Translations under genes and position numbers: made by a program
Shown: positions 7,055 to 62,852 of the stretch, piece after piece
Numbering within the stretch: position 1 is the stretch's first letter
Layout of the letters: the number at the start of each line of letters is the position of its first letter
Source: Caulobacter sp. FWC26
GTDB taxonomy: Bacteria; Pseudomonadota; Alphaproteobacteria; Caulobacterales; Caulobacteraceae
Direction of reading: 5' to 3'
Assembly: GCF_002742645.2 (NCBI RefSeq)
Contig: NZ_CP033873.1
Location: 124,001 to 188,000 of the forward strand
Length of the DNA: 64,000 bases
The notes under the pieces: generated by a model
What the model was told of the DNA's origin: nothing
Databases searched by the model: none
Seen by the model: the letters and a program-made list of their open reading frames with translations, nothing else

Positions 7055-7124
7055 TTTGAATATCAGAATGTATGGAAGCGTCCCGCCGCAGCGCTGATGT
7101 TTCGCTTTCAGTATGATTCTGATA
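7055..7124. promoter_or_regulatory. Divergent control region with inverted TATCAGAAT boxes
   Basis: Between the thioesterase (leftward) and IclR gene (rightward), TATCAGAAT occurs at 7061-7069 and its exact reverse complement ATTCTGATA at 7116-7124, 46 bp apart and facing inward. The first fits the window-wide core with one mismatch (TTT-N6-CAGA from 7055). The arrangement suits an autoregulated divergent promoter. Sequence identity is observed; binding by the adjacent IclR protein is a guess. Confidence 0.5.
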
Positions 7125-7169
7125 GTGAATTGCTTGAATTTGGCGGTGTTCGTCGAAGATGGAGTGCGC

Positions 7170-7994
7170 ATGGCGCGATCAGCAGTGGGCACGGTCTCCC
7201 GCGACGATGGGGAGAGCCTTGACGGAGGGGGGGGCGACCTTTCCGAAAAGACGGTGATCGTCAAACCCGCGGCCAATGCGATCCGTATCCTGAAATTCCT
7301 GGTCGAATCGGGCGGGCCGACACGGTCGGTGACCATCTCGCGGAGCCTTGGGCTCAACGCCAGCACCTGCTTCAACATCCTTCGCACTCTGGTGCTGGAG
7401 GATGTCGTCGAGTTCGATCCGCTCACCAAGACCTATACCGTGGGCGTTGGTTTGACGACGCTGATGGGCAATCTGTTGACCGAGGGTCAACGTGTGGCGA
7501 CCGCCACGCCGCAGATGCGCGACCTGGCCGATCGCTTCAACATCACCGTGACCCTGTGGAAGCGACTGGGGCCCGACAAGATCATTCTGGTCAAGAGCGT
7601 GCCGAGCCCGGCGAACGTTCGCATTGAAATGGCCGAAGGCCAGCGACTGCCTGTGCTCATGGCCTCGACGGGCCGGATCATGGCGCCGCACCTGGGCTGG
7701 ACGCGAAAGGACCTGAAGACCGCGTTCAAGGCTCTGCGTTGGCAGACACCCCTGACCTTCGAGGACTACTGGGAACAGGTGGAGGCCGCCGAGAGGCGCG
7801 GCTGGGCCAGCGACCCGGGCTACTTCACCAAAGGCGTGCAGACCATCGCCGCGCCGGTGTTTGACCGAACCGGCGATGTGGCCTTCAGCATCGTTGGGGT
7901 GATGCTGCTCGGCCAGTATGAAGACGCCGCGCTCGAAGAGATTGGCACTGCCCTGCGCGACGCTGGCCGGCGCCTGACCAGCGCCCTGACCTGA
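7170..7994 (+). CDS. IclR-family transcriptional regulator
   Basis: This protein has an N-terminal winged helix (A-N-A-I-R-I-L-K-F-L followed by S-V-T-I-S-R-S-L-G-L-N-A-S-T-C) and a C-terminal IclR effector domain (V-L-M-A-S-T-G-R-I-M-A-P-H, then T-I-A-A-P-V-F-D). From ATG 7170 it is 274 residues; the frame is open upstream to 7113, but that part runs through AT-rich control DNA, so I prefer 7170, with a weak G-A-T-G-G-A-G site. IclR proteins often control aromatic and terpenoid catabolism and sense a pathway acid or CoA ester. It is the only IclR gene here and lies beside boxes repeated across the window, which makes it a candidate master regulator. Confidence 0.9.
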   Translation: MARSAVGTVSRDDGESLDGGGGDLSEKTVIVKPAANAIRILKFLVESGGPTRSVTISRSLGLNASTCFNILRTLVLEDVVEFDPLTKTYTVGVGLTTLMGNLLTEGQRVATATPQMRDLADRFNITVTLWKRLGPDKIILVKSVPSPANVRIEMAEGQRLPVLMASTGRIMAPHLGWTRKDLKTAFKALRWQTPLTFEDYWEQVEAAERRGWASDPGYFTKGVQTIAAPVFDRTGDVAFSIVGVMLLGQYEDAALEEIGTALRDAGRRLTSALT

Positions 7995-8005
7995 TCGCCG
8001 CGTCA

Positions 8006-8419
8006 TCAACGATCGCCTAGGCCGGCTCTGGTCTTCCAGTCCGGCGGCGGGGCTTCATCGGCGGCGAAATCGAGCTCGACTTCGACGCCGTTCGGATCGA
8101 ACAAAAACAGCTGCCAGAAGCTGAACGGGCGGGGCGTGCGGATCACCCGATAGGTTAGGCCCGCCGCGGCGATGCGCGCGGCGGCCGCCTGAAAGCCCTG
8201 CGCGAAGAAGGCCATGTGGTCCAATGCCCCTCGCCGCGGCTCGGGCATGCGCGTCGTCTCGACGATGTGCAAAAGCGGATGATCGCCGACATAGAGCCAC
8301 GCTCCGCCGACGCCAAAATCGGGCCTTGGCCCCATCGTCAGCCCGAGCATGGCGTAGAAATCGAGAGTCTCGGTCAATCGGTCCGTCATGACGGTGAAGT
8401 GGTCCATGCGGACGATCAT
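8006..8419 (-). CDS. VOC-superfamily (glyoxalase-fold) protein
   Basis: This 137-residue single-domain vicinal-oxygen-chelate protein begins M-I-V-R-M-D-H-F-T-V, with a metal-type histidine at residue 7, a second in A-L-D-H-M-A-F-F, and the C-terminal glutamate strand G-V-E-V-E-L-D-F. It could be a small lyase, isomerase or dioxygenase-like protein. It is convergent with the IclR gene (11 bp apart) and divergent from the amidohydrolase at 8590. The exact reaction is unknown. Confidence 0.8.
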   Translation of the reverse strand: MIVRMDHFTVMTDRLTETLDFYAMLGLTMGPRPDFGVGGAWLYVGDHPLLHIVETTRMPEPRRGALDHMAFFAQGFQAAAARIAAAGLTYRVIRTPRPFSFWQLFLFDPNGVEVELDFAADEAPPPDWKTRAGLGDR

Positions 8420-8465
8420 CGACTACCCCGCTTTTTTGCCGCCATGCCGAGATGACGATGGCAGG

Positions 8466-8514
8466 TATTTTCTAGACACTTTTGCGATTTTTGTTATAGA
8501 AAGAAATTCTGAAT
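8466..8514. promoter_or_regulatory. AT-rich divergent promoter region (VOC / amidohydrolase)
   Basis: This AT-rich stretch lies in the 170-bp divergent spacer. It contains G-T-A-T-T-T-T-C-T-A-G and then AGAAA-N3-ATTCT-GAAT (8498-8514), a near match to the AGAAT-N3-ATTCT repeats at 5628, 35530 and 43898. A promoter or operator role is inferred from position, composition and similarity only. Confidence 0.35.
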
Positions 8515-8589
8515 GGCGGTGGCGGTCCAAAAGCCCTGCCCGGTTGAGAGGCGGCGACAAGCCGCCCTTTTGGAAGCGAGGAAAGCCAG

Positions 8590-9924
8590 ATGACAGTCGA
8601 TGACATGATCCTTGTGAGCGTGGACGACCACGTCATCGAGCCGCCGAATGCCTTTACGCCACACTGGCCGCAGCACCTGAAAGGCCGCGAGCCGCACATC
8701 GAAGAGCGCGACGGTCGCGACGTCTGGATGTTCGAGGAAAAGGCCTCCGGCTACATGGGCCTCAATTCCGTCGTCGGCCGCCCGAAGGAAGAGTACGGCA
8801 TGGAGCCGCTCAACTACGCGCAGATGCGCCGCGGCACGTGGGACATCAAGGCGCGCGTTGAGGATATGGACGCCAACGGCATCCTGGGTTCGATCTGCTT
8901 CCCGACGTTCCCGGGGTTCGCCGGCGCTCGGTTCCAAACCGCCTCGAAGCAGGATCCCGAGGTCGCCCTGGCGGCGATCCGGGCCTACAATGACTGGCAC
9001 TTCTATGACTGGGCCGGCGCCGCGCCCGGCCGTTTCATCCCGCTTATGCTGACGCCGTTCTGGGACATGCAGGCGGCCGTCGCCGAAGTGGAGCGAATGG
9101 CGAAGCTGGGCGTCCACGCCCTGTCGTTCTCGGACAACCCGGCGCTTGCGGGCTGGCCCTCGCTGCATGACGCCTATTGGGATCCGCTCTGGAAGGCCTG
9201 CGCCGACAATCAGGTGGTTATCTGCTGCCACATCGGCACGGGCTCGGCGGCCGCGCACGCGTCGGACCTGTCGCCCATCGACGCCTGGATCACCTCGATG
9301 CCGATCTCGATCGCCAACTCGGCGGCCGACTGGATCTGGGCGCCGATGTGGAAGAAGTACCCCACGCTGAAGATGGCCCTTTCCGAAGGCGGCATCGGTT
9401 GGATTCCCTACCTGCTGGAACGCGCCGATTTCACCCACGGCCACCACAATGCCTGGACCAATTCGAATTTCGGCCCCGGCGTGATGCCCAGCGACATCTA
9501 CAAGAAGCACATCATCAGCTGCTTCATCGAAGACAAGTTCGGTCTGGCCAACCTCGACTACATCGGCGAGGACATGGTCATGTACGAATGCGACTATCCG
9601 CACTCGGACTCGGTCTGGCCGCACTCGGCCGAGAAGCTGTGGAACGACGTTCAGCACCTGTCGCGTGAGACGATCGACAAGATCACCCACATCAATGCGA
9701 TGCGCGAATTCTCCTATGACCCGTTCTCGGTGCTGAAGAAGGAAGATTGCACCGTCGGCGCCCTGAAGGCGGCGGCCGCGGCCGTCCCGGTTCATACTGA
9801 TCCGCTGCTCGGCCTCGGGGGCGCTGCGCCCAAGCGGGAAGCCGGCAAGCCGGTGACCTCGGGCGACATCAACCGGATGTTCGCGAACGCTTCTGCGGAA
9901 TCGACGGTCTCGGGCCGCCGCTAG
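8590..9924 (+). CDS. Amidohydrolase-2 family metal-dependent hydrolase/decarboxylase
   Basis: This 444-residue TIM-barrel protein of the ACMSD-like amidohydrolase group has an N-terminal metal motif S-V-D-D-H-V-I-E-P, an Asp-x-His-like variant of the usual H-x-H, followed by C-C-H-I-G-T-G and the C-terminal acid in Y-E-C-D-Y-P-H-S-D. Such enzymes decarboxylate or hydrolyse aromatic and cyclic acids. The start is supported by G-A-G-G-A-A-A-G just upstream. It is monocistronic, with a strong hairpin 23 bp after the stop. I recognise the family but not the substrate. It is a distant relative of the proteins at 57060 and 61788. Confidence 0.87.
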   Translation: MTVDDMILVSVDDHVIEPPNAFTPHWPQHLKGREPHIEERDGRDVWMFEEKASGYMGLNSVVGRPKEEYGMEPLNYAQMRRGTWDIKARVEDMDANGILGSICFPTFPGFAGARFQTASKQDPEVALAAIRAYNDWHFYDWAGAAPGRFIPLMLTPFWDMQAAVAEVERMAKLGVHALSFSDNPALAGWPSLHDAYWDPLWKACADNQVVICCHIGTGSAAAHASDLSPIDAWITSMPISIANSAADWIWAPMWKKYPTLKMALSEGGIGWIPYLLERADFTHGHHNAWTNSNFGPGVMPSDIYKKHIISCFIEDKFGLANLDYIGEDMVMYECDYPHSDSVWPHSAEKLWNDVQHLSRETIDKITHINAMREFSYDPFSVLKKEDCTVGALKAAAAAVPVHTDPLLGLGGAAPKREAGKPVTSGDINRMFANASAESTVSGRR

Positions 9925-9946
9925 ACGGCCCGGCCGGAGATCAAGG

Positions 9947-9974
9947 CGCCCGCCGGAACAGCCACCGGCGGGCG
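9947..9974. terminator. Hairpin terminator between convergent genes
   Basis: A perfect 10-bp stem, CGCCCGCCGG pairing with CCGGCGGGCG around an 8-base loop, is followed by T-T-C-T-T-A on the + strand. It sits between the amidohydrolase stop and the end of the phosphotransferase gene and could stop transcription from both sides. Confidence 0.7.
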
Positions 9975-9977
9975 TTC

Positions 9978-11042
9978 TTATGTCCGCTTTCCCTCGATCC
10001 AGCGCCCCGCGCGCCCGAGCAAGCGCACGGCGTTGCCATGCAGGCGTTGGCCGATATCCATCGGGGCCTTGCCGGCGCAGGCCCGCGCGTAGCTGCCTTC
10101 CAGGATCAAGGCCAGCTTGTAGCAAGCAAACACCCGGTACCAATTCAGGTTCGACAGATCCGAACCCGTCAGCCGGCCATAGACCTCAACCAGTTCCTCG
10201 GACTCCGGAAAGCCCTCCCACGGCTCGACGACGATCGTCGTCTGGCTCATGTCTCCGCCCGGACCCGGCCAGGTCGCCAGGAGCCAGCCGAGATCGACCA
10301 GGGGATCGCCGATCGTCGACAGCTCCCAGTCAATGATGGCTTCGATGACCGGCGCGTCCTGACGAAACAGCACGTTCTTGAGATGAAAGTCGCCATGCAT
10401 CAGGCCGGGACGAAAGGTCCTGGGCCGATGGGCTTCCAACCAGTCGCCGATGGGGCCGACATCGGGCAGGCCGACGGCGCCGGGCCAGCCTGGGAACTCA
10501 CCGTAGCTTTCAAGCTGCGTCAGCCAGCGACGCGCCTGGCGTTCCAGAAAGCCATCCGGTTTGCCGAAGTCGGCAAGGCCGACCGCCGCATAGTCGATCA
10601 GCGCGACGCGGGACAGGCCGTCAACAACCGACAGGCCCATAGCGCGCCGCGCCGCGGGCGACCCGGCGTGCAGGGGCGGCATGCCCACCGCGGCGTTGAA
10701 TCCCTCAAGCGGTGCCATCAGGTAGAACGCCGCCCCGAGCACCGAGGCGTCGTCGCACGCGGCGATCAGGCCGGCGTGAGGCACGTCCGAGCCCTTGAGC
10801 GCCTTGAGCACGCGCGCCTCGCGCCTCATCGTATCGCTGCCGTCATGGCGCGGATTGGCGGGCGGACGGCGCAGGACGTACCCGCGACCGCTTCGGTTGA
10901 AGCGTAGCAGGACATTCTGCGAGCCGCCGGTTAATTGAGCGACGTCGACGATGGGGCCCGAACCCAAACCTTCGCCATCCATCCACGCGGACAGGGAGTC
11001 GAGGTCGACCAACTCGAGACCGTGGGGACGATCGATGGTCAT
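9978..11042 (-). CDS. APH-family phosphotransferase, ACAD10/11 or LvaA type
   Basis: This 354-residue aminoglycoside-phosphotransferase-fold kinase has the catalytic loop L-M-H-G-D-F-H-L-K-N-V-L-F and the metal-binding I-I-D-W-E-L-S-T-I-G-D-P-L, typical of the kinase half of ACAD10/ACAD11 and of bacterial LvaA. I start it at 11042 (M-T-I-D-R-P), where ATGA overlaps the stop of the acyl-CoA dehydrogenase; the frame is open further upstream but only inside that gene. In the known systems the kinase phosphorylates a 4-hydroxyacyl-CoA, and the dehydrogenase-like partner removes phosphate to move the oxygen for beta-oxidation. That role here is inferred from the tight pairing. Confidence 0.9.
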   Translation of the reverse strand: MTIDRPHGLELVDLDSLSAWMDGEGLGSGPIVDVAQLTGGSQNVLLRFNRSGRGYVLRRPPANPRHDGSDTMRREARVLKALKGSDVPHAGLIAACDDASVLGAAFYLMAPLEGFNAAVGMPPLHAGSPAARRAMGLSVVDGLSRVALIDYAAVGLADFGKPDGFLERQARRWLTQLESYGEFPGWPGAVGLPDVGPIGDWLEAHRPRTFRPGLMHGDFHLKNVLFRQDAPVIEAIIDWELSTIGDPLVDLGWLLATWPGPGGDMSQTTIVVEPWEGFPESEELVEVYGRLTGSDLSNLNWYRVFACYKLALILEGSYARACAGKAPMDIGQRLHGNAVRLLGRAGRWIEGKRT

Positions 11043-12337
11043 GCGACCACCGCCCTCAGACCCGCCTCGCCGCCGGTCAGGCCAAGCTTGCTCAGCGCCG
11101 CCTGACGACGCGCGGGCAGATGGTAATCCGGAAAGAGACCCTGCGAACGCTTTCGGCCTCGCAGGAGCTGCTTGGCCAGGGTCACCTTGTGAATGTCGGT
11201 CGGTCCGTCCGCCAAACCGACCTGGAACGAGTCCAGCACCATCGCCGCCAACGGCGTCTCGTTCGACAGTCCCAGACAGCCGTGGACATAGACCGCGCGC
11301 GCGGCGATGTCGTGGAGCACCTTGGGCATGGCCGCCTTGACCGCCGAAATGTCGCCACGCACCTTGTTGTAGTCCTGCTCGCGATCGATCTTCCAGGCCG
11401 TGCGCAGGACCAGCAGGCGAAATTGCTCGAGTTCGATCCAGCTGTCGGCGATCTTCTCCTGAACCAGTTGCTTGTCGGCCAGCAGCTCGTTGCGCGTGAT
11501 GCGCGACAGGGCGCGATCGCACAGCATGTCGAACGCTTGGCGGGCTTTTCCGATCGTTCTCATGGCGTGGTGAATACGACCGCCGCCCAATCGAACCTGG
11601 GCCACGACAAAGCCGGCGCCGCGGCCGCCCAGCATATGATCGAGCGGAACGGCGACATCGGTGAAGCGCAAATAGGCATGGGCCGGATCGCGATCGCCGT
11701 AGCCGACATTGCGAACGATCTCGAGCCCGGGCGCGCCCTTGGGAATGATGAAGACCGAAAGGCGTCGATGGGGAGGAGCGTCGGGCTCGGTAACGGCCAT
11801 GACCAGAAAGAAACTCGCGTAGCGGGCGTTGGTGGCGAACCATTTCTCGCCGTTGAGCACCCATTGATCGCCCTTCAGGACCGCGCGGGTCGAAAAGGTC
11901 GTCGGGTCGGCGCCGCCCTGCGGTTCTGTCATCGAAAAGCAGGAGACGATGTCATTGGCGAGCAGGGGCTGGAGATAGCGCGCCTTCTGTTCGGCGGTGC
12001 CGTAGACCGCGAGAATTTCGGCGTTGCCGGAATCGGGCGCCTGGCAGCCAAAGACGGTCGGCGCGAAGATCGAGCGCCCCAGAATCTCGTTCATCAAGGC
12101 CAGCTTGACCTGGCCATAGCCAGGCCCTCCCAGCTCAGGGCCAAGGTGACAGGCCCAGAGACCCCGCGCCTTGACCTGTTGCTGCAGCGGACGAACGAAA
12201 CGTTGGTTCAGGGGGTTGTCGACGTCGAATGGGCTTTGCAAGACGAGGTCGAGCGGCTCGACCTCATCGCGGACAAAGGCGTCGATCCAGGCCAACTGCT
12301 CGGCAAAATCGGGGTCGGTTTCGAAGTCCCAGGCCAT
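11039..12337 (-). CDS. Acyl-CoA dehydrogenase, ACAD10/11 or LvaC type
   Basis: This 432-residue acyl-CoA dehydrogenase-fold flavoprotein has the middle-domain motif C-F-S-M-T-E-P-Q-G-G-A-D-P, the segment G-G-G-R-I-H-H-A-M-R-T-I-G characteristic of the ACAD10/11 branch, and a C-terminal A-D-G-P-T-D-I-H-K in the place of the usual Y-E-G-T-x-x-I. It overlaps the kinase gene downstream by four bases, and an SDR lies 26 bp upstream, so the three look like one operon (SDR, dehydrogenase, kinase). A dehydrogenase-fold phosphate-eliminating enzyme for 4-hydroxyacyl-CoA is the best guess; ordinary alpha,beta-desaturation is the alternative. Confidence 0.92.
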   Translation of the reverse strand: MAWDFETDPDFAEQLAWIDAFVRDEVEPLDLVLQSPFDVDNPLNQRFVRPLQQQVKARGLWACHLGPELGGPGYGQVKLALMNEILGRSIFAPTVFGCQAPDSGNAEILAVYGTAEQKARYLQPLLANDIVSCFSMTEPQGGADPTTFSTRAVLKGDQWVLNGEKWFATNARYASFFLVMAVTEPDAPPHRRLSVFIIPKGAPGLEIVRNVGYGDRDPAHAYLRFTDVAVPLDHMLGGRGAGFVVAQVRLGGGRIHHAMRTIGKARQAFDMLCDRALSRITRNELLADKQLVQEKIADSWIELEQFRLLVLRTAWKIDREQDYNKVRGDISAVKAAMPKVLHDIAARAVYVHGCLGLSNETPLAAMVLDSFQVGLADGPTDIHKVTLAKQLLRGRKRSQGLFPDYHLPARRQAALSKLGLTGGEAGLRAVVA

Positions 12338-12363
12338 TGGCCGTCTCCGTTCTTATTGGATTG

Positions 12364-13095: not shown

Positions 13096-13120
13096 GAGAG
13101 GCCTAAAACGATTGAATGAA

Positions 13121-13156: not shown

Positions 13157-13162
13157 CAATCC

Positions 13163-13783: not shown

Positions 13784-13830
13784 GTGCGCGCGGTGCGCCG
13801 CATGGACTCGAAATGAGTCTTCCCGTTTAG

Positions 13831-13860
13831 AACTCAGAATGAAATTCGTGTATCAGATTT
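13831..13860 (+). promoter_or_regulatory. Window-wide TTC-N6-CAGA element before the first TonB receptor
   Basis: CAGAAT-N3-ATTC (13835-13847) is followed by the core TTC-N6-CAGA at 13845-13857, 123 bp before the receptor start. AAATTC-N4-ATCAGA is identical in spacing to the elements at 35538-35551 and 44365-44380 (minus strand). The trailing T-rich stretch and T-C-T-T-G-C-G-A also recur before the receptor at 39928. I infer a shared regulatory site. Confidence 0.5.
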
Positions 13861-19468: not shown

Positions 19469-19474
19469 GACTCG

Positions 19475-22495: not shown

Positions 22496-22521
22496 AGAAT
22501 ATCGTTCTGAACAGAGAATTT
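22496..22521. promoter_or_regulatory. Divergent regulatory element (acyl-CoA dehydrogenase / 3-hydroxyacyl-CoA dehydrogenase)
   Basis: On the + strand AGAAT-N3-GTTCT occupies 22496-22508. On the minus strand AAATTC-N4-TTCAGA (core TTC-N6-CAGA) occupies 22506-22521, pointing to the dehydrogenase operon 70 bp away. The remaining spacer to 22689 shows no gene I can support and is leader DNA for the rightward operon. Confidence 0.5.
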
Positions 22522-32397: not shown

Positions 32398-32541
32398 GAC
32401 CGCGAGCCCGCCATGCGTTGGCAACGAGGTTGGGGGGGCGTGCGTAGGCTGACGATCACGGGTATCCTCCGGACGCGGTCTGGGCAGCGTCTCTTTCGGT
32501 GACGCTAGAACGGCCGACGCAATTCGGCAAGCGAAACGCAC

Positions 32542-32556
32542 TTCTGGTATCAGAAT
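32542..32556. promoter_or_regulatory. Perfect TTCTG-N4-CAGAA inverted repeat
   Basis: TTCTG-GTAT-CAGAA followed by T is a perfect 5-bp inverted repeat in the MFS/MDR divergent spacer, 85 bp before the rightward start. It includes the TATCAGAAT box seen at 7061 and 33663 and is one of the two best copies of the window-wide element. A transcription factor site is inferred. Confidence 0.55.
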
Positions 32557-32639: not shown

Positions 32640-33662
32640 GTGCGCGCGCTGACGAGCTTTGAGCCTGGCGGCCCTGAAACCCTGAAGATCCGCGATGTGG
32701 ACGAGCCTTCGCCTGGGCCAGGTCAAGTCGCTGTCGCCGTCCAGGCCTGCGGGGTCAATTTCCCGGATCTGCTGGTCATTGAGGATAAGTATCAGCTGCG
32801 GCCGGCGCGGCCGTTTTCGCCGGGCAGCGAATTGGCCGGCGTGGTGCGCGCGATCGGCGAGGGTGTCACCGCGCCGGGCGTGGGTGATCGGGTTTCGGCG
32901 TCGCTGCCGTTCGGCGCGATGGCCGAGGTGGCCATCGTGGCGGCGGACCGGTGCACTGTTCTGCCTGACGCCATGCCCATCGAGGAAGCTGCGGCGTTGC
33001 AGGTGACCTATGGAACCGTCCTTCACGCCCTGGTGGGCTGCGCAGGCATGCGGCCGGGGGAAACGCTCCTGGTTCTGGGCGCCGGCGGCGGTGTCGGCCT
33101 CGCGGCCGTGGAATTGGGGAAGGCCCTAGGCGCTCGCGTGGTCGCCGCGGCGTCTTCGCACGACAAGCTCGAAGCCGCCCGCGCGGCCGGCGCCGATGCG
33201 CTCGTGCACTATCCGGGCGCGTTCGAGGGTGTCGCTCAGGCGAGGGCCTTTACCGAGGCCGTGCGGGCCGCCAGCGGCGGGGAAGGGGTCAATGTCGTCA
33301 TCGACCCGGTCGGGGGAGCCTATGCAGAGCCGGCATTCCGCGCCATCGCCGCGCAGGGGCGGTATCTGGTCGTGGGCTTTGCGGCCGGAATCCCGGCGAT
33401 CCCGCTCAATCTCGTCCTGCTCAAGGCCGCCCAGATCATCGGCGTTTTCTGGGGGGCCTACATGGCGCGCGACCCTCAATCCGGCGCGCGGGACATGAAG
33501 GCGTTGCTGGACCTCTATCAGGCGGGCAAGATCCGGCCGCGCATCTCCGAGCGCTATGCGTTGGAGGAAGGTGGAAGGGCGATCGCGCGGCTGGGCGCTC
33601 GGGGTGTGACCGGCAAGATTGTCGTAAACGTATCGAGTTCTGAAAGCAGAACGAAAGACTAA
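32640..33662 (+). CDS. MDR-family NADPH:quinone oxidoreductase-like protein
   Basis: This 340-residue medium-chain dehydrogenase/reductase without structural zinc cysteines begins at GTG 32640 after G-A-G-G. The NADP Rossmann loop is G-A-G-G-G-V-G-L-A-A-V, and N-F-P-D-L-L near residue 40 replaces the zinc-ligand region, as in quinone oxidoreductases and enoyl reductases. It could reduce an enone or quinone intermediate. A perfect TTCTG-N4-CAGAA repeat overlaps its 3' end and precedes the CoA ligase gene. Confidence 0.9.
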   Translation: MRALTSFEPGGPETLKIRDVDEPSPGPGQVAVAVQACGVNFPDLLVIEDKYQLRPARPFSPGSELAGVVRAIGEGVTAPGVGDRVSASLPFGAMAEVAIVAADRCTVLPDAMPIEEAAALQVTYGTVLHALVGCAGMRPGETLLVLGAGGGVGLAAVELGKALGARVVAAASSHDKLEAARAAGADALVHYPGAFEGVAQARAFTEAVRAASGGEGVNVVIDPVGGAYAEPAFRAIAAQGRYLVVGFAAGIPAIPLNLVLLKAAQIIGVFWGAYMARDPQSGARDMKALLDLYQAGKIRPRISERYALEEGGRAIARLGARGVTGKIVVNVSSSESRTKD

Positions 33663-35493: not shown

Positions 35494-35519
35494 CTCGAGG
35501 CCAGCCGCGAGGTATTTTA

Positions 35520-35551
35520 TCCTGATAGCAGAATTAAATTCTCCCATCAGA
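35520..35551 (+). promoter_or_regulatory. Regulatory elements before the second TonB receptor
   Basis: TCCTG-N4-CAGAA (35520-35533, one mismatch) is followed by AGAAT-N3-ATTCT (35530-35542) and the core TTC-N6-CAGA at 35539-35551. AAATTC-N4-ATCAGA aligns exactly with the copies at 13844 and 44365 (minus). A TTGACT lies 9 bases further on. It is 119 bp before the receptor start. Confidence 0.5.
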
Positions 35552-35669
35552 CTAAAGCGATTGACTTAAATGCGGAGCTGAGTTCCCTTCCGCTCATAAG
35601 GCGATCGTGCGAGTTCGTTGAAATCGTCCAGATCGCGGCCGCGCATAGCGCGCAAGGGAGGGACGATCC

Positions 35670-39710: not shown

Positions 39711-39803
39711 CCGTATGCGGGGAGGTGGGGGCTTTGATGGGCGCTTGATGAGGCTTGGCCGCCCATGTGGCGAGCGCGCGACTGATCGTCGCGTTTTGGA
39801 ATG

Positions 39804-39852
39804 ATCTTCTTATCTCAGATTTTTATTCTTGCGACAGATTTCCAATTCTGTT
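39804..39852. promoter_or_regulatory. Paired TTC-N6-CAGA elements in a divergent spacer
   Basis: Two cores lie 19 bp apart, 39807-39819 and 39826-39838, followed by ATTCTG at 39845-39850. The segment T-C-A-G-A-T-T-T-T-T then T-T-C-T-T-G-C-G-A is nearly shared with 13853-13870, also upstream of a TonB receptor. The spacer is AT-rich and serves the SDR (left) and receptor (right). Confidence 0.5.
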
Positions 39853-43879: not shown

Positions 43880-43910
43880 CAGATTATTTCAAATGCAGAA
43901 TAGTATTCTA
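43880..43910. promoter_or_regulatory. Regulatory boxes upstream of the P450 gene
   Basis: CTCAGATT (43878-43885), TTT-N6-CAGA (43887-43899, one mismatch to the core) and AGAAT-N3-ATTCT (43897-43909) cluster in the 105-bp spacer before the P450. The same AGAAT-N3-ATTCT form is found at 5628 and 35530. Confidence 0.45.
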
Positions 43911-43945: not shown

Positions 43946-44344
43946 TCAGTGTCCGTGGATCGCGCTGACGGCGCCCGGGTCGGTGTAGTCTCGCCATCGA
44001 ACGAGCCGGCCGTCGTCGTCCAACTCGAAAACGCCCGCGATCGAGAAGGCGCCGATCTCGCGCCCGTCGGCGGCCAGGAGGCGATCAACGCGCTCGGTCA
44101 GGACGACATTGCCCGTCGCGGCGATATGCAGTGTTTCCACGATGATTGTCGCATAGCCCATGCTGGCCTCGAACTGCGCGCCCAGCGCCAGCGCCTCGTC
44201 GGCGCCGACCGTGCGCGACAGGCCCATATTGGTCCATTCCGTGTCGGCCCGAAAAAGATCGCGGATCGCCTGCTCGAGCCGCTCGGGCCCCTCGGACCAG
44301 GCGTCCAGAAAGGTCCGGATAATATCGATCGGCGCACGGCTCAT
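43946..44344 (-). CDS. Limonene-1,2-epoxide hydrolase-like (SnoaL-fold) protein
   Basis: This 132-residue NTF2/SnoaL-fold protein has R85-x-D87 in T-E-R-V-D-R and W-R-D-Y-T-D at residues 117-122, matching the Arg-Asp-Asp catalytic set of limonene-1,2-epoxide hydrolases; most other SnoaL-like proteins lack it. It would add water to an epoxide, possibly one formed by the P450 encoded next to it. A TTC-N6-CAGA site lies 21 bp before its start. Epoxide hydrolase activity is a reasoned inference. Confidence 0.82.
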   Translation of the reverse strand: MSRAPIDIIRTFLDAWSEGPERLEQAIRDLFRADTEWTNMGLSRTVGADEALALGAQFEASMGYATIIVETLHIAATGNVVLTERVDRLLAADGREIGAFSIAGVFELDDDGRLVRWRDYTDPGAVSAIHGH

Positions 44345-44362: not shown

Positions 44363-44386
44363 ATTCTGATGGCGGAATTTAATTTC
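44363..44386 (-). promoter_or_regulatory. TTC-N6-CAGA element before the epoxide-hydrolase-like gene
   Basis: Read on the minus strand, GAAAT-N3-ATTCC (44386-44374) leads into the core TTC-N6-CAGA (44377-44365) and then ATT. Spacing equals that of the copies before the TonB receptors at 13980 and 35670. It lies between this gene and the divergent glutathione peroxidase gene, so it may act on either. Confidence 0.5.
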
Positions 44387-44463
44387 GACGCGCGATGCCG
44401 ATGGCGCTTTGCTAAGCTGCGCGCTGACGGCGGCAAGCGCCGCAGGCAATCAATGGAGTCCCC

Positions 44464-48056: not shown

Positions 48057-48103
48057 GGGTGTCCTCCGCAGCGCTAGGCGCCATATAATTTTGAACAGAG
48101 GTG

Positions 48104-48124
48104 GCATTTCTGTATAGAAAATGC
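48104..48124. promoter_or_regulatory. Palindrome between oxygenase alpha and ferredoxin genes
   Basis: GCATTTCT-GTAT-AGAAAATGC is a near-perfect palindrome (one extra A in the right arm) in the 149-bp divergent spacer. The central G-T-A-T is also found in the copy at 32542. It is well placed to coordinate the oxygenase operon (left) and the long ferredoxin-MFS-SDR-VOC operon (right). Confidence 0.5.
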
Positions 48125-48205
48125 AACTGTTCGATTCAGTGAGGAACGACGGGCCGCTGGCCCTCCGGAGAAGCCCCAAAGGGGCGCCCGGCACGGAGGA
48201 AGGTT

Positions 48206-48424
48206 ATGAGTTCAGAAGCGACCCCGCATCGCGTCAGGGCGGACCGAAGCGCCTGCTGCGGCTATGGCACCTGCGTGGAGATCTGCCCCGAGATCTATCA
48301 GCTCGAGGGGGGGCTTGTGGTTGTGACCACCGACATCGTGCCCGCCGAGCTGTTGGAGCGGGCGATCGAAGGCGCAGAGTCCTGCCCCCAAGGCGCCATC
48401 GTCGTGGAAGCCGTTGAGGGATGA
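48206..48424 (+). CDS. 3Fe-4S-type ferredoxin
   Basis: This 72-residue ferredoxin has C17-x2-Y20-x2-C23-x3-C27-P and C60-P. Only three of the four usual [4Fe-4S] cysteines are in place; the missing one is a tyrosine, a pattern of [3Fe-4S] ferredoxins that serve P450s. An extra cysteine (C18) neighbours the first. It could serve the adjacent Rieske oxygenase and/or the P450 at 42560, receiving electrons from the reductase at 4361. G-G-A-G-G-A precedes the ATG; the stop overlaps the MFS start by four bases. It is the first gene of an operon running to 53881. Confidence 0.93.
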   Translation: MSSEATPHRVRADRSACCGYGTCVEICPEIYQLEGGLVVVTTDIVPAELLERAIEGAESCPQGAIVVEAVEG

Positions 48425-55657: not shown

Positions 55658-55664
55658 GCGCGCG

Positions 55665-56510: not shown

Positions 56511-56529
56511 CGGCTTTCCTCGACGTTGG

Positions 56530-56973: not shown

Positions 56974-57019
56974 GGGGTCCTGGACCTCGCGCCAAGCCGG
57001 CGACGGCTCGGAACGGCAA

Positions 57020-57045
57020 GCGGCGGCTCTTCAAGGAGCCGCCGC
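57020..57045 (-). terminator. Hairpin between amidohydrolase and HIT-like genes
   Basis: A 10-bp perfect stem (GCGGCGGCTC with GAGCCGCCGC, loop T-T-C-A-A-G) starts 15 bp after the amidohydrolase stop on the minus strand. There is no T-run, so partial read-through into the HIT/FAH genes is likely. Confidence 0.5.
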
Positions 57046-57059
57046 GCCGGAGACTGGAA

Positions 57060-58136
57060 TTAGGCGGCGATCGATTTGGTCGCGCGACCCATCTTGTCCA
57101 GGTCGATATTCAGCAGGTCGACCGCATTCTTCCAGCGGATCTTTTCGAGATCTTCCGGAGAAATCTGCAGGCCGTCGGTAAGGTCGCCACGGATCGCGTC
57201 GCTGCCGCCGAAATTGGTGCCATAGACCAGCCGGTCCGCGCCGATGACCTCGACCAGGGCCTGACGCATCGGCAGTTCATGCAGTTCCGGATCGAACCAG
57301 AAGTTCGGCAGGTACTCCTCGAGGTCCTTCTTGTTGTGGACCACGTCCAGGTTCTTGATGGTCTGGGCCAGGCGGCCAAGCTGGTAGGGCACGAAGCCGC
57401 CCGCGTGGGTGATATAGACCTTCAGCTTAGGGAAGCGATCGAGGACGCCGCCGCAGATCAGGTACCAGAAGCACTTGGTCTCGTCATAGTTCATGCCGAC
57501 GATGGCCGTCGTCTCGTATTTGTCAGTGTTGGCCTTGGACCCCCAGGTCACAGACTGATTGTAGCCGTGTACGAACATCGGCAGATCGAGGTCGCAGAGG
57601 GTCTCCCAGATCGGGTCCATGCGCGGATCGTCGAATTCGAGGCCGCCGAAGTTCGAACCGCCGGCGCTGAGGCCCTTGGCCCCCAGTTCGGTGCAGGCGC
57701 GACGGATTTCCTTGGCCGCGTTGACCGGGTCTTGCAGGGCGGCCGTGGCCCACATCATCAACCGGCCGTCCGAGCGGCTGCAGTATTCGGCCAGGGTGTC
57801 ATTGACCGTGGTCGAGAACCGGTTGGCGAACTCCGGCTCGGCCCAGTACATGTAGCAGTGCGACGGCACCGAGAGGACTTGCGCGTCCTGACCCAGAGCG
57901 TCCATGCCGGCCAGGCGGTGCTTGGGATCGTTCCACTTCGACATGAACTCGGCCACTTCCATCGTCTCGCCCCGCTTGACCGCGGCGCGACGCTCGGGCG
58001 AGCCCAGAGTCAGCACCCATTCGCCGACCCGCAGGCGGATATGGCCGTCGTCATGCTTTTCGAAGAAGGGGCCCCAGTGCGGATCTTGGTTGTAGTAGCC
58101 CGGCAGCGGGGCGTGAGCGTGAAGATCGATCAGCAT
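57060..58136 (-). CDS. ACMSD-like amidohydrolase (decarboxylase/hydrolase)
   Basis: This 358-residue TIM-barrel enzyme begins M-L-I-D-L-H-A-H-A at ATG 58136 behind A-G-G-A-G-G-A-A-A; H-A-H is the H-x-H metal motif. It also has V-H-G-Y-N-Q-S, Y-I-T-H-A-G-G-F (metal histidine) and Y-G-T-N-F-G-G, where the usual D is replaced by N in the last motif. The family includes 5-carboxyvanillate, gamma-resorcylate and ACMS decarboxylases. It is paralogous to 61788. Substrate unknown; it probably removes CO2 from, or hydrolyses, a ring-derived acid. Confidence 0.9.
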   Translation of the reverse strand: MLIDLHAHAPLPGYYNQDPHWGPFFEKHDDGHIRLRVGEWVLTLGSPERRAAVKRGETMEVAEFMSKWNDPKHRLAGMDALGQDAQVLSVPSHCYMYWAEPEFANRFSTTVNDTLAEYCSRSDGRLMMWATAALQDPVNAAKEIRRACTELGAKGLSAGGSNFGGLEFDDPRMDPIWETLCDLDLPMFVHGYNQSVTWGSKANTDKYETTAIVGMNYDETKCFWYLICGGVLDRFPKLKVYITHAGGFVPYQLGRLAQTIKNLDVVHNKKDLEEYLPNFWFDPELHELPMRQALVEVIGADRLVYGTNFGGSDAIRGDLTDGLQISPEDLEKIRWKNAVDLLNIDLDKMGRATKSIAA

Positions 58137-58269
58137 CTGATTTCCTCCTGCGTCGAGGCCCCCTGGCGGAGCTCTTCGAGCCATGTGCGTTCCCTGGCGC
58201 GACTATCGCATTTTTTGAACGGTTTGGTCGATAGTGTTCAGTGCATTCTCTAACGCGAACGTAATTCGG

Positions 58270-58313
58270 CTGTCAAAACAAACCTTGACAGCGCCGAGGC
58301 CCGATCGCCTATC
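58270..58313 (+). promoter_or_regulatory. Sigma-70-like promoter with overlapping inverted repeat
   Basis: CTGTCAA-N8-TTGACAG (58270-58291) is a perfect 7-bp inverted repeat. Its right arm contains TTGACA (58285-58290), and CCTATC follows 17 bases later (58308-58313), a plausible -35/-10 pair for the MFS gene at 58422. A repressor on the repeat would block that promoter. It lies in the 285-bp spacer to the leftward amidohydrolase. Confidence 0.6.
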
Positions 58314-58421
58314 GTCCGACGCGTCGCGGCCTTGAGCGCGCGAGGCGAAAGAGGCGACGTCGACTCTACGACGGAGCGCCCGGGGGCCCAAAAGGGCGTT
58401 TATCGGCGGAGGATACGGACA

Positions 58422-59789
58422 ATGCACGGACAGGCGAGCGCGACGGCGACCGAGACGCCCTATCCCCCGATCCGCTATGCCTGGTACGTGATCTGCGTCC
58501 TGTTCGTGGCGACGTTGCTTTCGCAACTGGACCGGCAGCTGCCCGCGCTGCTGGTGCGCCCCATCCGCGCCGAGTTTGGCATTTCCGACACCGCCTTCAG
58601 CTTCCTTCAGGGATACGCCTTCGCCCTCTTCTACACCTTCGCCGGGCTGCCGTTCGGCTGGCTGATCGACCGCACGGTCCGGCGAAATCTGATCATCGTC
58701 GGCATGGTTCTGTGGAGCGTGATGACGGTTCTGTCGGGTTTTGCGCAGAGCTACGACGCGCTGGTGTTGACCCGGATGGGCGTGGGGATCGGCGAGGCCG
58801 TGCTAGCGCCGGCCGCCTATTCGATAATCGCCGACTACGTCTCGCCCGAACGGAGGGGGCGCGCGTTCAGCGTCTACTATCTGTCCTTGGCCATTGGTTC
58901 GGGCGCATCCTTGATCTTGGGCGCGCTGATCGCACGGATCATCCCCGATGCGGGTCTCAACCTGCCGGGCGTTGGGCTGATGTCGCCCTGGCGGTTGACC
59001 TTTCTGGTCGCTGGCGCGCCGGGTCTGGCGCTGGCCCTGCTCTTGCTGACCATCCGCGAGCCCGCGCGCCGGGACGCGGTGAGCGTGCTTCTGTCGAAGA
59101 CGAGCGCCGGCTGGGGAGAGTTCTTCAGCTATCTCAAACGCCATGCCGCCGCTTTTTCGCGCGTGCTGACCTATCCGGGCGTGGTCGCCGTGATCGGCTA
59201 TGGGACCTTGGCCTGGGCGCCGACCCTCTTTGATCGCCGCTTTGGTATTCCGACCAAGACCTCGGGCTTGATCATCGGGGTGCTGGTCGCGGCCGGCGGC
59301 CTTGTCGGGACCCTGATCAGCGGCTGGCTCAGCGATCGTTGGGCCGCCAAGCGCGTGCCCGCCGCGCGGCTTCGCGTGGCGATGCTGGCCTGGCTGCTGG
59401 TCTTGCCAACGGTGAGCCTATGGTCCCTCGTCGGCGCGCCGTGGCTCAGCTTCGCCTTGCTGACGGTGGTCGTCACCGGCTTCGCGATGGCCCAAGCCGC
59501 CGCGCCGACGGCCGTGCAGGCGATTACGCCGAACCGTATGCGAGGCAAGGCGGTGGCGATCTATCTGCTCATCGGCGGCTTGGTGGGCATCGGCTTTGGA
59601 CCGATGTCGGTCGCCCTGGTCACGGATCATGTCTTTAAGGACGATGCGGGGCTGCCCTATGCGCTCGCCGTCGTCGGCGGCCCCATCGCGCTTCTCGGCC
59701 TATGGCTGACCTGGTCGGGGCTGAAACCCTACCAGCGCACCGTGGAGGCCTTGGAGGCGGCGGCGGAAGCCGATACGGCGCGGTCCTGA
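58422..59789 (+). CDS. MFS transporter, spinster-like group
   Basis: This 455-residue, 12-helix carrier starts at ATG 58422 after G-G-A-G-G. The loop motifs G-L-P-F-G-W-L-I-D-R and R-M-G-V-G-I-G-E-A resemble those of the MFS protein at 31117, so the two are paralogues. It probably imports an acid substrate for the amidohydrolase and SDR genes around it. Its promoter has a strong inverted repeat. Confidence 0.92.
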   Translation: MHGQASATATETPYPPIRYAWYVICVLFVATLLSQLDRQLPALLVRPIRAEFGISDTAFSFLQGYAFALFYTFAGLPFGWLIDRTVRRNLIIVGMVLWSVMTVLSGFAQSYDALVLTRMGVGIGEAVLAPAAYSIIADYVSPERRGRAFSVYYLSLAIGSGASLILGALIARIIPDAGLNLPGVGLMSPWRLTFLVAGAPGLALALLLLTIREPARRDAVSVLLSKTSAGWGEFFSYLKRHAAAFSRVLTYPGVVAVIGYGTLAWAPTLFDRRFGIPTKTSGLIIGVLVAAGGLVGTLISGWLSDRWAAKRVPAARLRVAMLAWLLVLPTVSLWSLVGAPWLSFALLTVVVTGFAMAQAAAPTAVQAITPNRMRGKAVAIYLLIGGLVGIGFGPMSVALVTDHVFKDDAGLPYALAVVGGPIALLGLWLTWSGLKPYQRTVEALEAAAEADTARS

Positions 59790-59805
59790 CGGCCAGCGCC
59801 GCGGA

Positions 59806-60645
59806 TCAAGGGGCCACGCGATCGGCGGCTGGCTTGTGCTGGGGGATCAGATAGTCGAGCTGCAGTTGAGCGAAGGGCAGAGGCGCGGTCATCCCGCCAT
59901 CGCACTTGTACAGTCCGCCGTTCATGAAGGCGGCTTCATCCGAAGCCAGATAGGCGGCAAGGTTGGCGATGTCATCGGGGCGACCCAGACGCGGTGCGTT
60001 CTGCAGCTTCATGAATGCCGAATGCATCTCGGGACTGGCCCACGCCTTCATAGCCGGGGTCTCGATCACCCCGGGGATCACCGCGTTGCACCGCACGCCC
60101 TGCTTGCCGTAGTTGGTGGCGATGGTTTTGACGTACCAGTTCACCATCGCCTTTGACGCACCATAGGAAAACTGCGCGACATCCCCGCCCAGGGCGCTGG
60201 TCGAGGAGGTGAACAGGATGCAGCCGCCGCCGCGCTCGAGCATGTGCGGCAGGGCGTACTTGGAGGCCAAAACCCCGCCCAGCACGTTGACCTGAACGAT
60301 CTCCTGGAAGACCGCTGGATCGAACTCCAGGAAGTCCACGTCTCGCTTGCGCTTGCCCGCCGCCGTATTGACCGCGTTGTTGAACAGGATGTCGAGGTGG
60401 CCGAACTCGGCGATGGCGCGCTCGACCATACCCTTCAAGGCCTGGTCGTCGGCGACGTCGACCGCGAAGCCCACGGCCCGTCCGCCGGCGCTTCGAATTT
60501 CCTCGGCGACGGCCTGGGCGGTGTCACCCAGGATGTCCGTGACAGCCACGGCGGCGCCTTCGGCCGCGAACTTCAGCGCCGAGGCGCGACCGATCCCCGA
60601 GCCGGCCCCGGTGATGACAGCGGTCTTGCCGGTCAAACGTGTCAT
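59806..60645 (-). CDS. Classical SDR oxidoreductase
   Basis: This 279-residue SDR starts at ATG 60645 (M-T-R-L-T-G-K-T-A-V-I-T-G) with G-G-A-A-G upstream; the frame is open to 60849, but that extension runs into the operator palindrome. It has T-G-A-G-S-G-I-G-R, N-N-A-V, S-S-T-S-A and Y-G-A-S-K; the C-terminal glycine motif is C-D-G-G. Divergent from the TetR gene at 60931 and likely controlled by it. Confidence 0.92.
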   Translation of the reverse strand: MTRLTGKTAVITGAGSGIGRASALKFAAEGAAVAVTDILGDTAQAVAEEIRSAGGRAVGFAVDVADDQALKGMVERAIAEFGHLDILFNNAVNTAAGKRKRDVDFLEFDPAVFQEIVQVNVLGGVLASKYALPHMLERGGGCILFTSSTSALGGDVAQFSYGASKAMVNWYVKTIATNYGKQGVRCNAVIPGVIETPAMKAWASPEMHSAFMKLQNAPRLGRPDDIANLAAYLASDEAAFMNGGLYKCDGGMTAPLPFAQLQLDYLIPQHKPAADRVAP

Positions 60646-60841
60646 GGGTCTTCCGTTCTCGTAGGGTGGTTGCTTCCGCACGTGTCCACGCGCCGCCATC
60701 GCGCACATCCCGCCATCCCTGACCGGACGCTGGCGGAGCGCGATCCCTTCCAGCGCATGGGCGGTCTCGCTCGAGGCCTGTTTGTGGCGGCGCGCCGCAG
60801 CGAACGAAACGCCTCGCGGCATGGAAGATTTATCCCTACTA

Positions 60842-60857
60842 TAAGTCAAGTGACTTA
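60842..60857. promoter_or_regulatory. TAAGTCA-N2-TGACTTA operator candidate
   Basis: A perfect 7-bp inverted repeat with a 2-bp centre lies in the 285-bp divergent spacer between the SDR and TetR genes, 74 bp before the TetR start. Size and symmetry fit a TetR-dimer site. The half-site T-G-A-C-T-T-A-A also occurs at 35562 upstream of a TonB receptor, though there it may just be a -35 box. Confidence 0.65.
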
Positions 60858-60930
60858 ATGGGGCGGGTTTCGGCGTCTGATCGTCGAGCGCCGGCTTTTA
60901 TTTTCGCTGGCAGTCGGGCAAGGATCGAGC

Positions 60931-61668
60931 ATGCCGAGACGTTTTCAGGAGTACCCCAAGACCGCCCAAAAGCTGATGCTGGTCGCCGAGCGCCTGTATG
61001 GTCAGCACGGTCTTGACGGGGTCTCGCTACGGCAGCTGGCTACGGCCGCGGGGCAGGCCAACAACTACGTGGTTCAGCATTACTTCGGCTCCAAGCTGGG
61101 CCTGATCCAGGCCGTGTCCGAGATGCGATTGCCGGCCATGGAAGCCCATCGCCAGACCCTGCTCGAGGTCGCGCGGGCCGAGGGCGATTTCAGCGTGCCG
61201 CGGCTGCTCAGCTGTCTGTTCTCGCCGCTCGTGACGATGTTGGAAGTACAGGCCATGAGGGACTATGCGCGCTTCACGCTCGCCGTCATGCAGCTGGAAC
61301 CGGAGGAGCATCCGTTCGAACGCTCGGCCGACATTTCGCCGGCCTCCACCGAAATCCGCAGCAAATTGAGCGAAAGCCTGTCGCATTTGGGGGCGGACGT
61401 GTTTCGTCGCCGGCTCGCATTGAGCGCTAGCATATTCCTAAACGGCATTTCGGAGCTGGGCGGAAAACTGAAGTTGTCGCCTGGCGGCTATGTCAGCCAC
61501 CAACAGTACCACAGCGACATCTTCGAGGCCGCCCTCGCGGTCCTGACGTGTCCCTTCTCGGCCGAGCCGCGCGCCGATTTCCGCGGTCCCCCGGCCCAGC
61601 CAGCCTTGGCCGACGACATGGCCGGCGCAAGCCGCCGGCCCGGCCGTCCGGCGGCGCCGACGGGCTGA
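60931..61668 (+). CDS. TetR-family transcriptional regulator
   Basis: This 245-residue regulator has the helix-turn-helix V-S-L-R-Q-L-A-T-A-A-G and V-V-Q-H-Y-F-G-S-K, then a helical ligand domain and a proline/arginine-rich tail. It is divergent from the SDR at 59806 with a perfect palindrome between them, the usual autoregulated layout. The 119 bp after its stop hold no gene I can support. Confidence 0.9.
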   Translation: MPRRFQEYPKTAQKLMLVAERLYGQHGLDGVSLRQLATAAGQANNYVVQHYFGSKLGLIQAVSEMRLPAMEAHRQTLLEVARAEGDFSVPRLLSCLFSPLVTMLEVQAMRDYARFTLAVMQLEPEEHPFERSADISPASTEIRSKLSESLSHLGADVFRRRLALSASIFLNGISELGGKLKLSPGGYVSHQQYHSDIFEAALAVLTCPFSAEPRADFRGPPAQPALADDMAGASRRPGRPAAPTG

Positions 61669-61787
61669 TTTCGTGACATCGACGAAGGCTCGCGGGGCGC
61701 GCCGTCCGGTGGTCCCCCGGGGATCTGGCCAGCGATGTCGACGCCCTTGCGCCGTATCGCCGGACCGACACCACCGGCTTGACGGGA

Positions 61788-62816
61788 TCAGGCGGCCCGC
61801 ACCGCCTGGCCCATATCGAGCTTGAGCAACCGCATGGCGTTGCCACTGCGGATCTTCTCGCGATCGGCTTCGGAAAGGTCGATCCCGGCGGTGAGGTCGC
61901 CATGGTCGTAGGCCCCGCCGAAGTTGGTGCCATAGAGCAGCTGGTCTGGACCGATCACCTCCACCACGGCCCGCCGCAGGGCCGGGTGGTGGACATCGAG
62001 ATCGAAGTAGAAGTTCTTCATATAGTCCATGAGCGGACGCTGGTTACGCGCATCGGGGGCCATTGCCCCGTTCAATTCAGACAGCCGGCCCAGCTGGAAC
62101 ACCGCCATGCCGCCAGCGTGGGTGATGTAGGTCTTCAGAGTCGGGAAGGCGTCCAGGGCTCCACCACAGATCAGGTACCAGAAGAACAGGGTCTCATCGA
62201 CGCAGTCGCCCACGATGGACGTCGTTTCGAACCGATCCTCGTGATGGCGCTCGCCCAGATAGATCGACTGGTTGAACCCGTGCACCATGATGGGAACATC
62301 GAGTTCAGCCAGCTTGGCCCAGACGGGAAACAGGCGCTCGTCGTAGGTTTGAAGCCCGTCGAAATTAGTGCCGCCGACACAAAGGCCCTTGGCGCCCAGA
62401 ACGCGCACGGCGCGGTCGATCTCCTCGACCGCCGCATCCGGATCGGCCAAGTTGGCGTGGGCCCAGAAGTCGAACTTGTCGGGCATCACCTGGCAGAAGG
62501 CCGAGAGTTCGTCGTTGCAGATCCTGGCGTATTCGGTGCCGAACGCGCCGGCCCAGTACATGAAGGCGTGCGAAGGCGTGGACAGAACCAGCTTGTCGAC
62601 GCCGCGCTGCTCCATGACCGCCAGTCTCGCCGAATGGGTCATGCGGGCCAGCAGGTTCGCTTCGGCCTCTGCGTCGTCCTTGGCCTCGGCGGGCTGCTTG
62701 GTGCCCAGGGAGAAGTGCCCGACCGTCAGGCCCTGGGGCTTCATGAAGGGGCCCCAGAACGGGTGTCGCTTCATCATGCCTGGCGTGAAGAGGTGGGCGT
62801 GCACGTCGATCAGCAT
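61788..62816 (-). CDS. ACMSD-like amidohydrolase (decarboxylase/hydrolase)
   Basis: This 342-residue paralogue of the enzyme at 57060 begins M-L-I-D-V-H-A-H, and shares T-P-S-H-A-F-M-Y-W-A, V-H-G-F-N-Q-S-I, F-W-Y-L-I-C-G-G, Y-I-T-H-A-G-G-M and Y-G-T-N-F-G-G. The metal H-x-H and the barrel histidine are kept. The clear but incomplete similarity suggests successive steps or different substrates rather than redundancy. A site related to the window-wide element precedes it (62831-62852). Product unknown. Confidence 0.9.
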   Translation of the reverse strand: MLIDVHAHLFTPGMMKRHPFWGPFMKPQGLTVGHFSLGTKQPAEAKDDAEAEANLLARMTHSARLAVMEQRGVDKLVLSTPSHAFMYWAGAFGTEYARICNDELSAFCQVMPDKFDFWAHANLADPDAAVEEIDRAVRVLGAKGLCVGGTNFDGLQTYDERLFPVWAKLAELDVPIMVHGFNQSIYLGERHHEDRFETTSIVGDCVDETLFFWYLICGGALDAFPTLKTYITHAGGMAVFQLGRLSELNGAMAPDARNQRPLMDYMKNFYFDLDVHHPALRRAVVEVIGPDQLLYGTNFGGAYDHGDLTAGIDLSEADREKIRSGNAMRLLKLDMGQAVRAA

Positions 62817-62830
62817 GGTTTCCTCGTCGA

Positions 62831-62852
62831 TCTGTTATTAGATTGATATTCT
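62831..62852 (-). promoter_or_regulatory. AGAAT-N3-AATCT-N3-AACAGA element before the amidohydrolase
   Basis: On the minus strand the sequence fits the spacing of the window-wide element with one mismatch in the core (ATC-N6-CAGA). It lies 15 bp before the amidohydrolase start, in the 102-bp spacer shared with the MFS gene. Confidence 0.4.

Follow-up and report, generated by a model that had tools for sequence, protein, structure and literature searches.

Whether the many operons of a large catabolic island answer to one common regulator is the question raised by a 64,000-nucleotide stretch of Caulobacter sp. FWC26 (positions 124,001–188,000 of contig NZ_CP033873.1, here C1, of 298,222 bases), the whole of which is referred to below as the window. 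This stretch makes up 1.3% of a genome of 4.87 Mb in three contigs, and consists of ~59 kb of coding DNA and ~5 kb of spacers. Pfam scans of 60 window proteins revealed a catabolic island encoding a biotin-dependent carboxylase, acyl-CoA dehydrogenases, thiolases with an OB-fold partner, and a P450; three TonB-dependent receptors, many short-chain dehydrogenases/reductases (SDRs), and MFS transporters; and the alpha and beta subunits of a Rieske dioxygenase, together with a BphC-like extradiol dioxygenase. Its regulators are one IclR-family protein and three TetR-family proteins (genes 13163, 54983, and 60931). A first-pass annotation of the window had noticed a short core, TTC-N6-CAGA, recurring in the spacers, and had suggested that a single regulon joins the dispersed operons. 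As reported here, this core belongs to a larger three-box element, which is predicted from its sequence and distribution to be an operator recognized by the IclR-family regulator that the island itself encodes (7170..7994, + strand), with a probability of roughly 0.85.

Geometry and Enrichment of the Element

The element consists of alternating boxes AGAAT and ATTCT, with box starts lying 8 and 11 bases apart—that is, AGAAT-N3-ATTCT-N6-AGAAT. In a box scan of the window spacers, the distance from AGAAT to ATTCT was found to peak at 8 (11 pairs, compared with 6 for the next best distance), that from ATTCT to AGAAT at 11 (15 pairs, next best 7), and that between boxes of the same direction at 19 (21 pairs, next best 12, at 5 and 13). 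The spacing pair 8/11 yielded 25 chains at up to 4 mismatches, compared with a mean of 3.1 and a largest value of 13 for 99 other spacing pairs. Either pair may also occur alone, with only the 11-base pair present at 32541 and 33637, and mainly the 8-base pair at 8498 and 43897. The core noticed earlier corresponds to boxes 2 and 3 of the larger element, and its palindromic form, TTCTG-N4-CAGAA, to the 11-base pair; neither the 8-base pair, AGAAT-N3-ATTCT, nor the strong sites at 5609–5640 and 8487–8510 had been noticed.

With a three-box site defined as a match having at most 3 mismatches in 15, and with overlapping sites merged, the window was found to contain 10 sites in spacers and 1 in coding DNA, compared with 1 and 2, respectively, in the rest of C1, and none of either kind in 17 chromosomal control stretches of 20 kb (340 kb). 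Among the 24 window spacers that are non-convergent and at least 45 bases long, 10 contain three-box sites, or 12 when the two two-box palindromes are included. The genome has 25 matches to the 8-base pair at up to one mismatch, with 10 of these lying in the window (9 in spacers; binomial p = 4e-13), and its backward control at the same threshold gave 0 matches genome-wide. Furthermore, a matrix derived from 9 sites of other genomes gave, at score 12, 1.80 hits per kb in the window spacers, compared with 0.03 per kb in the remaining C1 spacers and 0.08 per kb in the chromosomal control spacers.

The bare core fared differently. In the window, TTC-N6-CAGA has 16 matches at 14 distinct places, with two palindromes counting on both strands; this number is about threefold above that in 100 dinucleotide shuffles (mean 5.51, largest 11), and the distinct places are divided between spacers (7) and coding DNA (7). 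The exact copies previously read at 13845, 22506 (−), 32542, 33638, 35539, 39807, 39826, and 44365 (−) are all present, with those at 32542 and 33638 being the perfect inverted repeats TTCTG-N4-CAGAA. However, of the seven control regions to which these copies had been assigned, that of 33638 is not a spacer, the copy lying in the last codons of the alcohol dehydrogenase (ADH) gene 32640–33662. Genome-wide, 603 matches of the bare core were counted as opposed to 641 of its backward control, and the palindromic form was found at 6 places (3 of them on C1) as opposed to 7. Thus, while the three-box element is enriched in the island spacers, the core is not enriched genome-wide, and it was therefore rejected as a regulon marker for being too loose. 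One-mismatch forms are indeed present at 7055, 35520, 43887, and 62831 (−), but are uninformative alone because such matches number 207, compared with 132 expected. The extended form AAATTC-N4-ATCAGA, for its part, has 3 copies on the entire 298-kb contig, at exactly the places pointed out earlier (13844, 35538, and, on the minus strand, 44380).

A de novo motif search of the spacers, carried out as a mixture search seeded with 1500 of the 6092 spacer words, recovered TTCTgatatcAGAA, but AT-rich models scored higher; a wider mixture search collapsed into AT-rich noise, and an explicit box model was used instead. Conceivably, the repeats could have arisen by chance or belong to AT-rich, UP-element-like promoter sequence of a GC-rich genome, given that the boxes are AT-rich and lie within AT-rich spacers, that the bare core lacks genome-wide enrichment, and that some single-promoter tests are weak against AT-matched shifts (see below). 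Such an origin is nevertheless highly improbable: the box spacing is fixed, the control stretches of the same genome are empty, and 19 permuted boxes of the same letters gave, at the same threshold, at most 2 window sites compared with 17 (unmerged) for the observed boxes.

Conservation in a Related Genome

At ten promoters compared with those of another Caulobacter genome (G067), 126 of 135 box bases (93%) are kept, as opposed to 1071 of 1642 (65%) of the other spacer bases. When the box pattern was shifted within the same spacers, none of 20,000 draws reached 126, with the chance mean being 89. All box bases are kept at six of the ten promoters, namely those at −6616, 8590, 13980, 22436, 39928, and 43840.

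The IclR-Family Regulator and Sites in Other Genomes

The protein encoded by 7170–7994, the proposed binder, matches both HTH_IclR (28.2 bits; cut-off 22) and IclR_C (61.7 bits; cut-off 24) of Pfam and is thus a member of the IclR family; its ATG start codon at 7170, as read in the first-pass annotation, is kept in the Caulobacter and Brevundimonas orthologs. Its best NCBIfam matches are BhcR, followed by PcaR/PcaU/PobR, but it is a member of neither family, with 69.2 bits against a curated cut-off of 350 and 47.5 bits against a cut-off of 284.75, respectively. The stretch NASTCFNILRTL, which we take from knowledge of the family to be the recognition helix, is nearly unchanged in 11 homologs down to 36% identity, the changes being A to P and I to T in the Massilia protein and R to K in two distant homologs. 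This near-invariance fits with a DNA code shared among the homologs.

Homologs of iclR were collected from 15 loci and from 5 of 120 related genomes (E ≤ 1e-40, the genome of the window included), with the other-genus loci being fetched by iclR and not by the motif. Three-box scoring covered L027–L039 and L060, the short loci L022, L024, and L026 being left out. All 14 of these iclR-homolog loci of other genera contain at least one three-box site, and all 24 sites lie in spacers: 8 in Brevundimonas, 11 in sphingomonads and RYN_526, 3 in Marinosulfonomonas and Bosea, and 2 in Massilia. Among the iclR-bearing genomes of Caulobacter, G067 has 11 spacer sites and G053 has 5, with none in coding DNA, and the near-twin genome G043 has 11 spacer sites (3 met twice in its stretches) and 1 coding site. 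As a separate observation on the latter genome, three operator sites occur near one end of its 265-kb contig C2 (L071, 1–20000) and again near the other (L074, 245001–265000). The contig may contain a duplication, or its ends may overlap as part of an unresolved circle; a simple match between the two ends was looked for and not found.

The pair AGAAH-N3-DTTCT occurs in spacers of 10 of the 15 iclR loci, compared with at most 2 loci for 19 other letter orders. L025, L027–L030, and L032 are not independent because they represent one orthologous promoter, before the 8590 gene; the remaining loci are L035 and L036 (Sphingomonas), L038 (Marinosulfonomonas), and L039 (Bosea). In the sphingomonad-type loci, sites precede 3-hydroxyacyl-CoA dehydrogenase/thiolase genes (L033, L035, and L036) and an acyl-CoA dehydrogenase operon downstream of iclR (L033, L034, and L035), and these target genes are homologs of those flanking the window site at 22496. 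The gene iclR itself is preceded by a site in 6 loci other than the window (L031, L032, L037, L039, L060, and G067), and in Massilia putida sites are found before iclR and before a DUF1302 gene. Within the genus, perfect palindromes average 3.0 in the 5 iclR-bearing genomes and 0.41 in 68 others (p = 2e-4), a difference that speaks for the link to iclR.

The first-pass annotation had named the TetR proteins as candidate binders alongside IclR, and an island TetR-family protein (13163, 54983, or 60931) might bind the element, with the link to iclR being one of mere neighborhood. Operators of TetR-family proteins are often short palindromes, three TetR genes are present within the window, and a Massilia TetR is 33% identical to the 54983 protein. 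However, IclR is favored because none of the three TetR proteins has a tblastn match (E ≤ 1e-10) in L033–L039, seven site-bearing iclR loci, although a diverged TetR could escape such a search. In addition, the spacers upstream of the three TetR genes (13096, 54819, and 60646) contain no site at up to 3 mismatches. Binding by a TetR protein is thus quite unlikely.

Comparison with Known IclR Operators

Operators of PcaU, PobR, HmgR, and 32 predicted groups of the IclR family have been described by Suvorova and Gelfand (2021; PMC8222616). In the passages of that study considered here, these operators are composed of three alternating boxes, with tandem sites having centers 18–22 bases apart, and the consensus is TYC, 7–8 bases, GRA for group 1 and GRA, 7–8 bases, TYC for group 2. 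The island element likewise has at least three boxes of alternating direction; its 11-base pair, TTC-N8-GAA, falls within the group 1 consensus, and its 19-base same-direction repeat lies within the range of the tandem sites. The flanks of the TTC/GAA core differ, being ATTCTG in the island and GKTYCRY in the passages cited.

By description, the island regulator can be likened to PbaR of the sphingomonad Sphingobium wenxiniae, a member of the IclR family that regulates an aromatic dioxygenase cluster and whose published site differs in sequence from the island element (PMC8222616). PheR of Sphingobium sp. SHPJ-2 is likewise an IclR-family regulator of a sphingomonad degradation operon, and its loss also raises expression of TonB and of a TonB-dependent receptor (PMC13273656). 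As points of difference, PheR is a repressor with the core GCAACG, and the passages of PMC13273656 considered describe no direct multi-operon operator array. No literature on the present regulator or motif was found; its group may be contained in PMC8222616, the supplements of which lay outside the search. The type of switch is a known one, of which the present regulator, together with its signal, appears to be a variant.

Weighing the Assignment to IclR

Several results weigh against the assignment of the element to the IclR-family regulator. No three-box site at up to 3 mismatches precedes iclR in the window, where only half-sites are found. The 8-base pair, GAA-N5-TTC, lies outside group 2 of the known operators as given in the passages of PMC8222616, being 2–3 bases shorter when the cores are superposed and fitting only if the cores are one base off. 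Taken singly, AT-matched shifts are beaten at the 5% level by only 3 of the ten promoters (13980, 35670, and 43840), and the site at promoter 44344 is not conserved in G067, with 9 of 15 box bases kept. One permuted box gives 8 sites in the sphingomonad loci, compared with 11 observed, and in the permuted-column control of the matrix, at score 9, 4 of 299 reach the observed 12 hits. Outside the genus, the palindrome cannot serve as a marker by itself because 47 genomes from other families within the order, having no iclR match, contain 0–7 palindromes. Finally, perfect copies of AGAAT-N3-ATTCT are present at 3 chromosomal places far from the island and at the start of a GntR gene on a plasmid of Novosphingobium resinovorum (L061:13516).

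These perfect copies count in favor of another regulator encoded outside the window, for example of the GntR family, that would read the same boxes; a GntR-domain gene (C1:194988–196358) also lies near a site to the right of the window, at window coordinate 68990. Against this, no GntR domain was found among the 60 window proteins scanned, and iclR is the gene that accompanies the sites across genera (in loci fetched by iclR), making a different regulator a very unlikely source of the pattern. The clusters of N. resinovorum (L061) and Croceicoccus (L062), which share the dioxygenase, contain neither iclR nor a three-box site within 45 kb, the absence of sites being weak evidence because permuted boxes average 0.3 there.

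The single regulon over dispersed operons suggested by the first-pass annotation is supported, and a single IclR regulon, predicted to comprise the three TonB receptors and the transport, CoA-ligase, P450, and beta-oxidation operons, is favored because of the fixed box geometry, the enrichment in island spacers, the conservation in a relative, and the sites beside iclR homologs.

Proposed Mechanism

An IclR dimer would read one pair of boxes, and two dimers would occupy neighboring pairs 19 bases apart along the same face of the helix; in the simplest reading, the arrays would represent adjoining dimer sites at 19-base intervals, with one end often incomplete. A substrate or intermediate of the pathway, bound by the C-terminal domain of IclR, may set the promoters together, such that the operons for outer-membrane uptake, inner-membrane transport, CoA activation, P450, and beta-oxidation would respond as a unit. 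By eye, the last box is followed by TTGCGA-N17-TAGCAT at the 13980 promoter and by TTGTTT-N17-TAGATA at the 32640 promoter. Because the boxes lie directly upstream of these plausible −35/−10 elements, activation would be suited at both promoters; an overlap between the last box and a TTGACA is seen in L033 and L035. Our guess, slightly in favor, is that the regulator is an activator rather than a repressor.

A broader scenario is put forward tentatively, at somewhat less than even odds. The regulator would represent a distinct IclR lineage, with the nearly invariant recognition helix NASTCFNIL-R/K-TL and its own code, AGAAT-N3-ATTCT-N6-AGAAT, in which one gap is shorter than in known IclR operators. 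This lineage would have traveled between alpha- and betaproteobacteria together with a large catabolic island. It would act as the island's master switch for all steps between outer-membrane uptake (through TonB receptors in Caulobacter and the DUF1302 gene in Massilia) and beta-oxidation, with the operators chained into arrays at receptor promoters. As a consequence of the IclR assignment, nearly 60 loosely annotated genes would be united in a single regulon open to testing, for which a candidate regulator is named and the operators are defined at the base level, and the motif could find further pathway genes in other genomes and help identify the substrate. If the short 8-base pair is bound, it would represent an arrangement new among the known IclR operators.

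Sites and Their Neighboring Genes

The sites are described here from left to right where possible, with strand given where one is assigned. A box array at 5598..5640, containing a perfect three-box site at 5617, precedes the NAD(P)-binding gene 5677. The site at 8487..8510 lies between the divergent glyoxalase-like gene 8006–8419 (−) and amidohydrolase gene 8590 (+), and is both kept in G067 and present at the same promoter in the Brevundimonas loci. The three-box site at 13825..13859 (+) precedes the TonB-dependent receptor gene 13980, and that at 22496..22519 lies between the acyl-CoA dehydrogenase operon 22436 (−) and the 3-hydroxyacyl-CoA dehydrogenase–thiolase genes 22723 (+); each has 15 of 15 box bases kept in G067. 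The other two TonB-dependent receptor genes, 35670 and 39928, are preceded by box arrays at 35511..35554 (+; 14 of 15 kept) and 39798..39850 (+; 20 of 20 kept), the latter being the longest.

Of the two-box palindromes TTCTG-N4-CAGAA, that at 32541..32556 lies between the MFS gene 32397 (−) and the ADH gene 32640 (+), with 9 of 10 box bases kept in G067 and a three-box site present only at 4 mismatches. The other, at 33637..33652, lies at the 3′ end of the ADH gene and upstream of the CoA-ligase gene 33853, and no three-box site is found at the corresponding place in G067. The site at 43886..43909, with a perfect AGAAT-N3-ATTCT (10 of 10 box bases kept in G067), precedes the P450 gene 42560–43840 (−), and the poorly kept site at 44363..44387 lies between the LEH-type gene 43946–44344 (−) and the glutathione-peroxidase-type gene 44464 (+). 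A weaker site with 3 mismatches, at 58245..58268, is located between the amidohydrolase gene 58136 (−) and the MFS gene 58422 (+), and has a counterpart at a like place in G067 (L070:14155). The last site, at 62829..62863, directly precedes the amidohydrolase gene 61788–62816 (−), with 14 of 15 box bases kept in G067, yet not above AT-matched shifts.

Outside the window, the palindrome TTCTGACATCAGAA is found at C1:117337, 6.7 kb to the left, where it is kept in G067 and precedes a 2-oxoacid dehydrogenase/acyl-CoA dehydrogenase/carboxylase operon extending into the window. On the right, the site at window coordinate 68990 (C1:192990) is a three-box site with two mismatches, before a tannase/feruloyl-esterase-type gene.

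The Ring-Cleavage Operons

No clear three-box site was found at the ring-cleavage operons (Rieske, BphC) of the window. An identity of the pathway as one for resin acids (dit, abietane diterpenoid) was considered and not established; a dit regulator of the IclR type is known, and none was met in the passages considered of PMC10710418, PMC13063091, and PMC6891630. Upstream of the Rieske alpha gene, at 48088–48125, a conserved block of approximately GAACAGAG-R-TGGCAT-W-TCTGTATAGAAA is common to the window, G067, and L033–L035, with the opposite orientation relative to the gene in the sphingomonad-type loci. This block may be bound by a different regulator, or it may represent a variant of the boxes with other spacing. 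In the long spacer before gene 48421, at 48195–48420, a small ferredoxin gene is seemingly present and was left uncalled by the gene caller; ferredoxin genes are found at a like place in the Novosphingobium resinovorum and Croceicoccus clusters.

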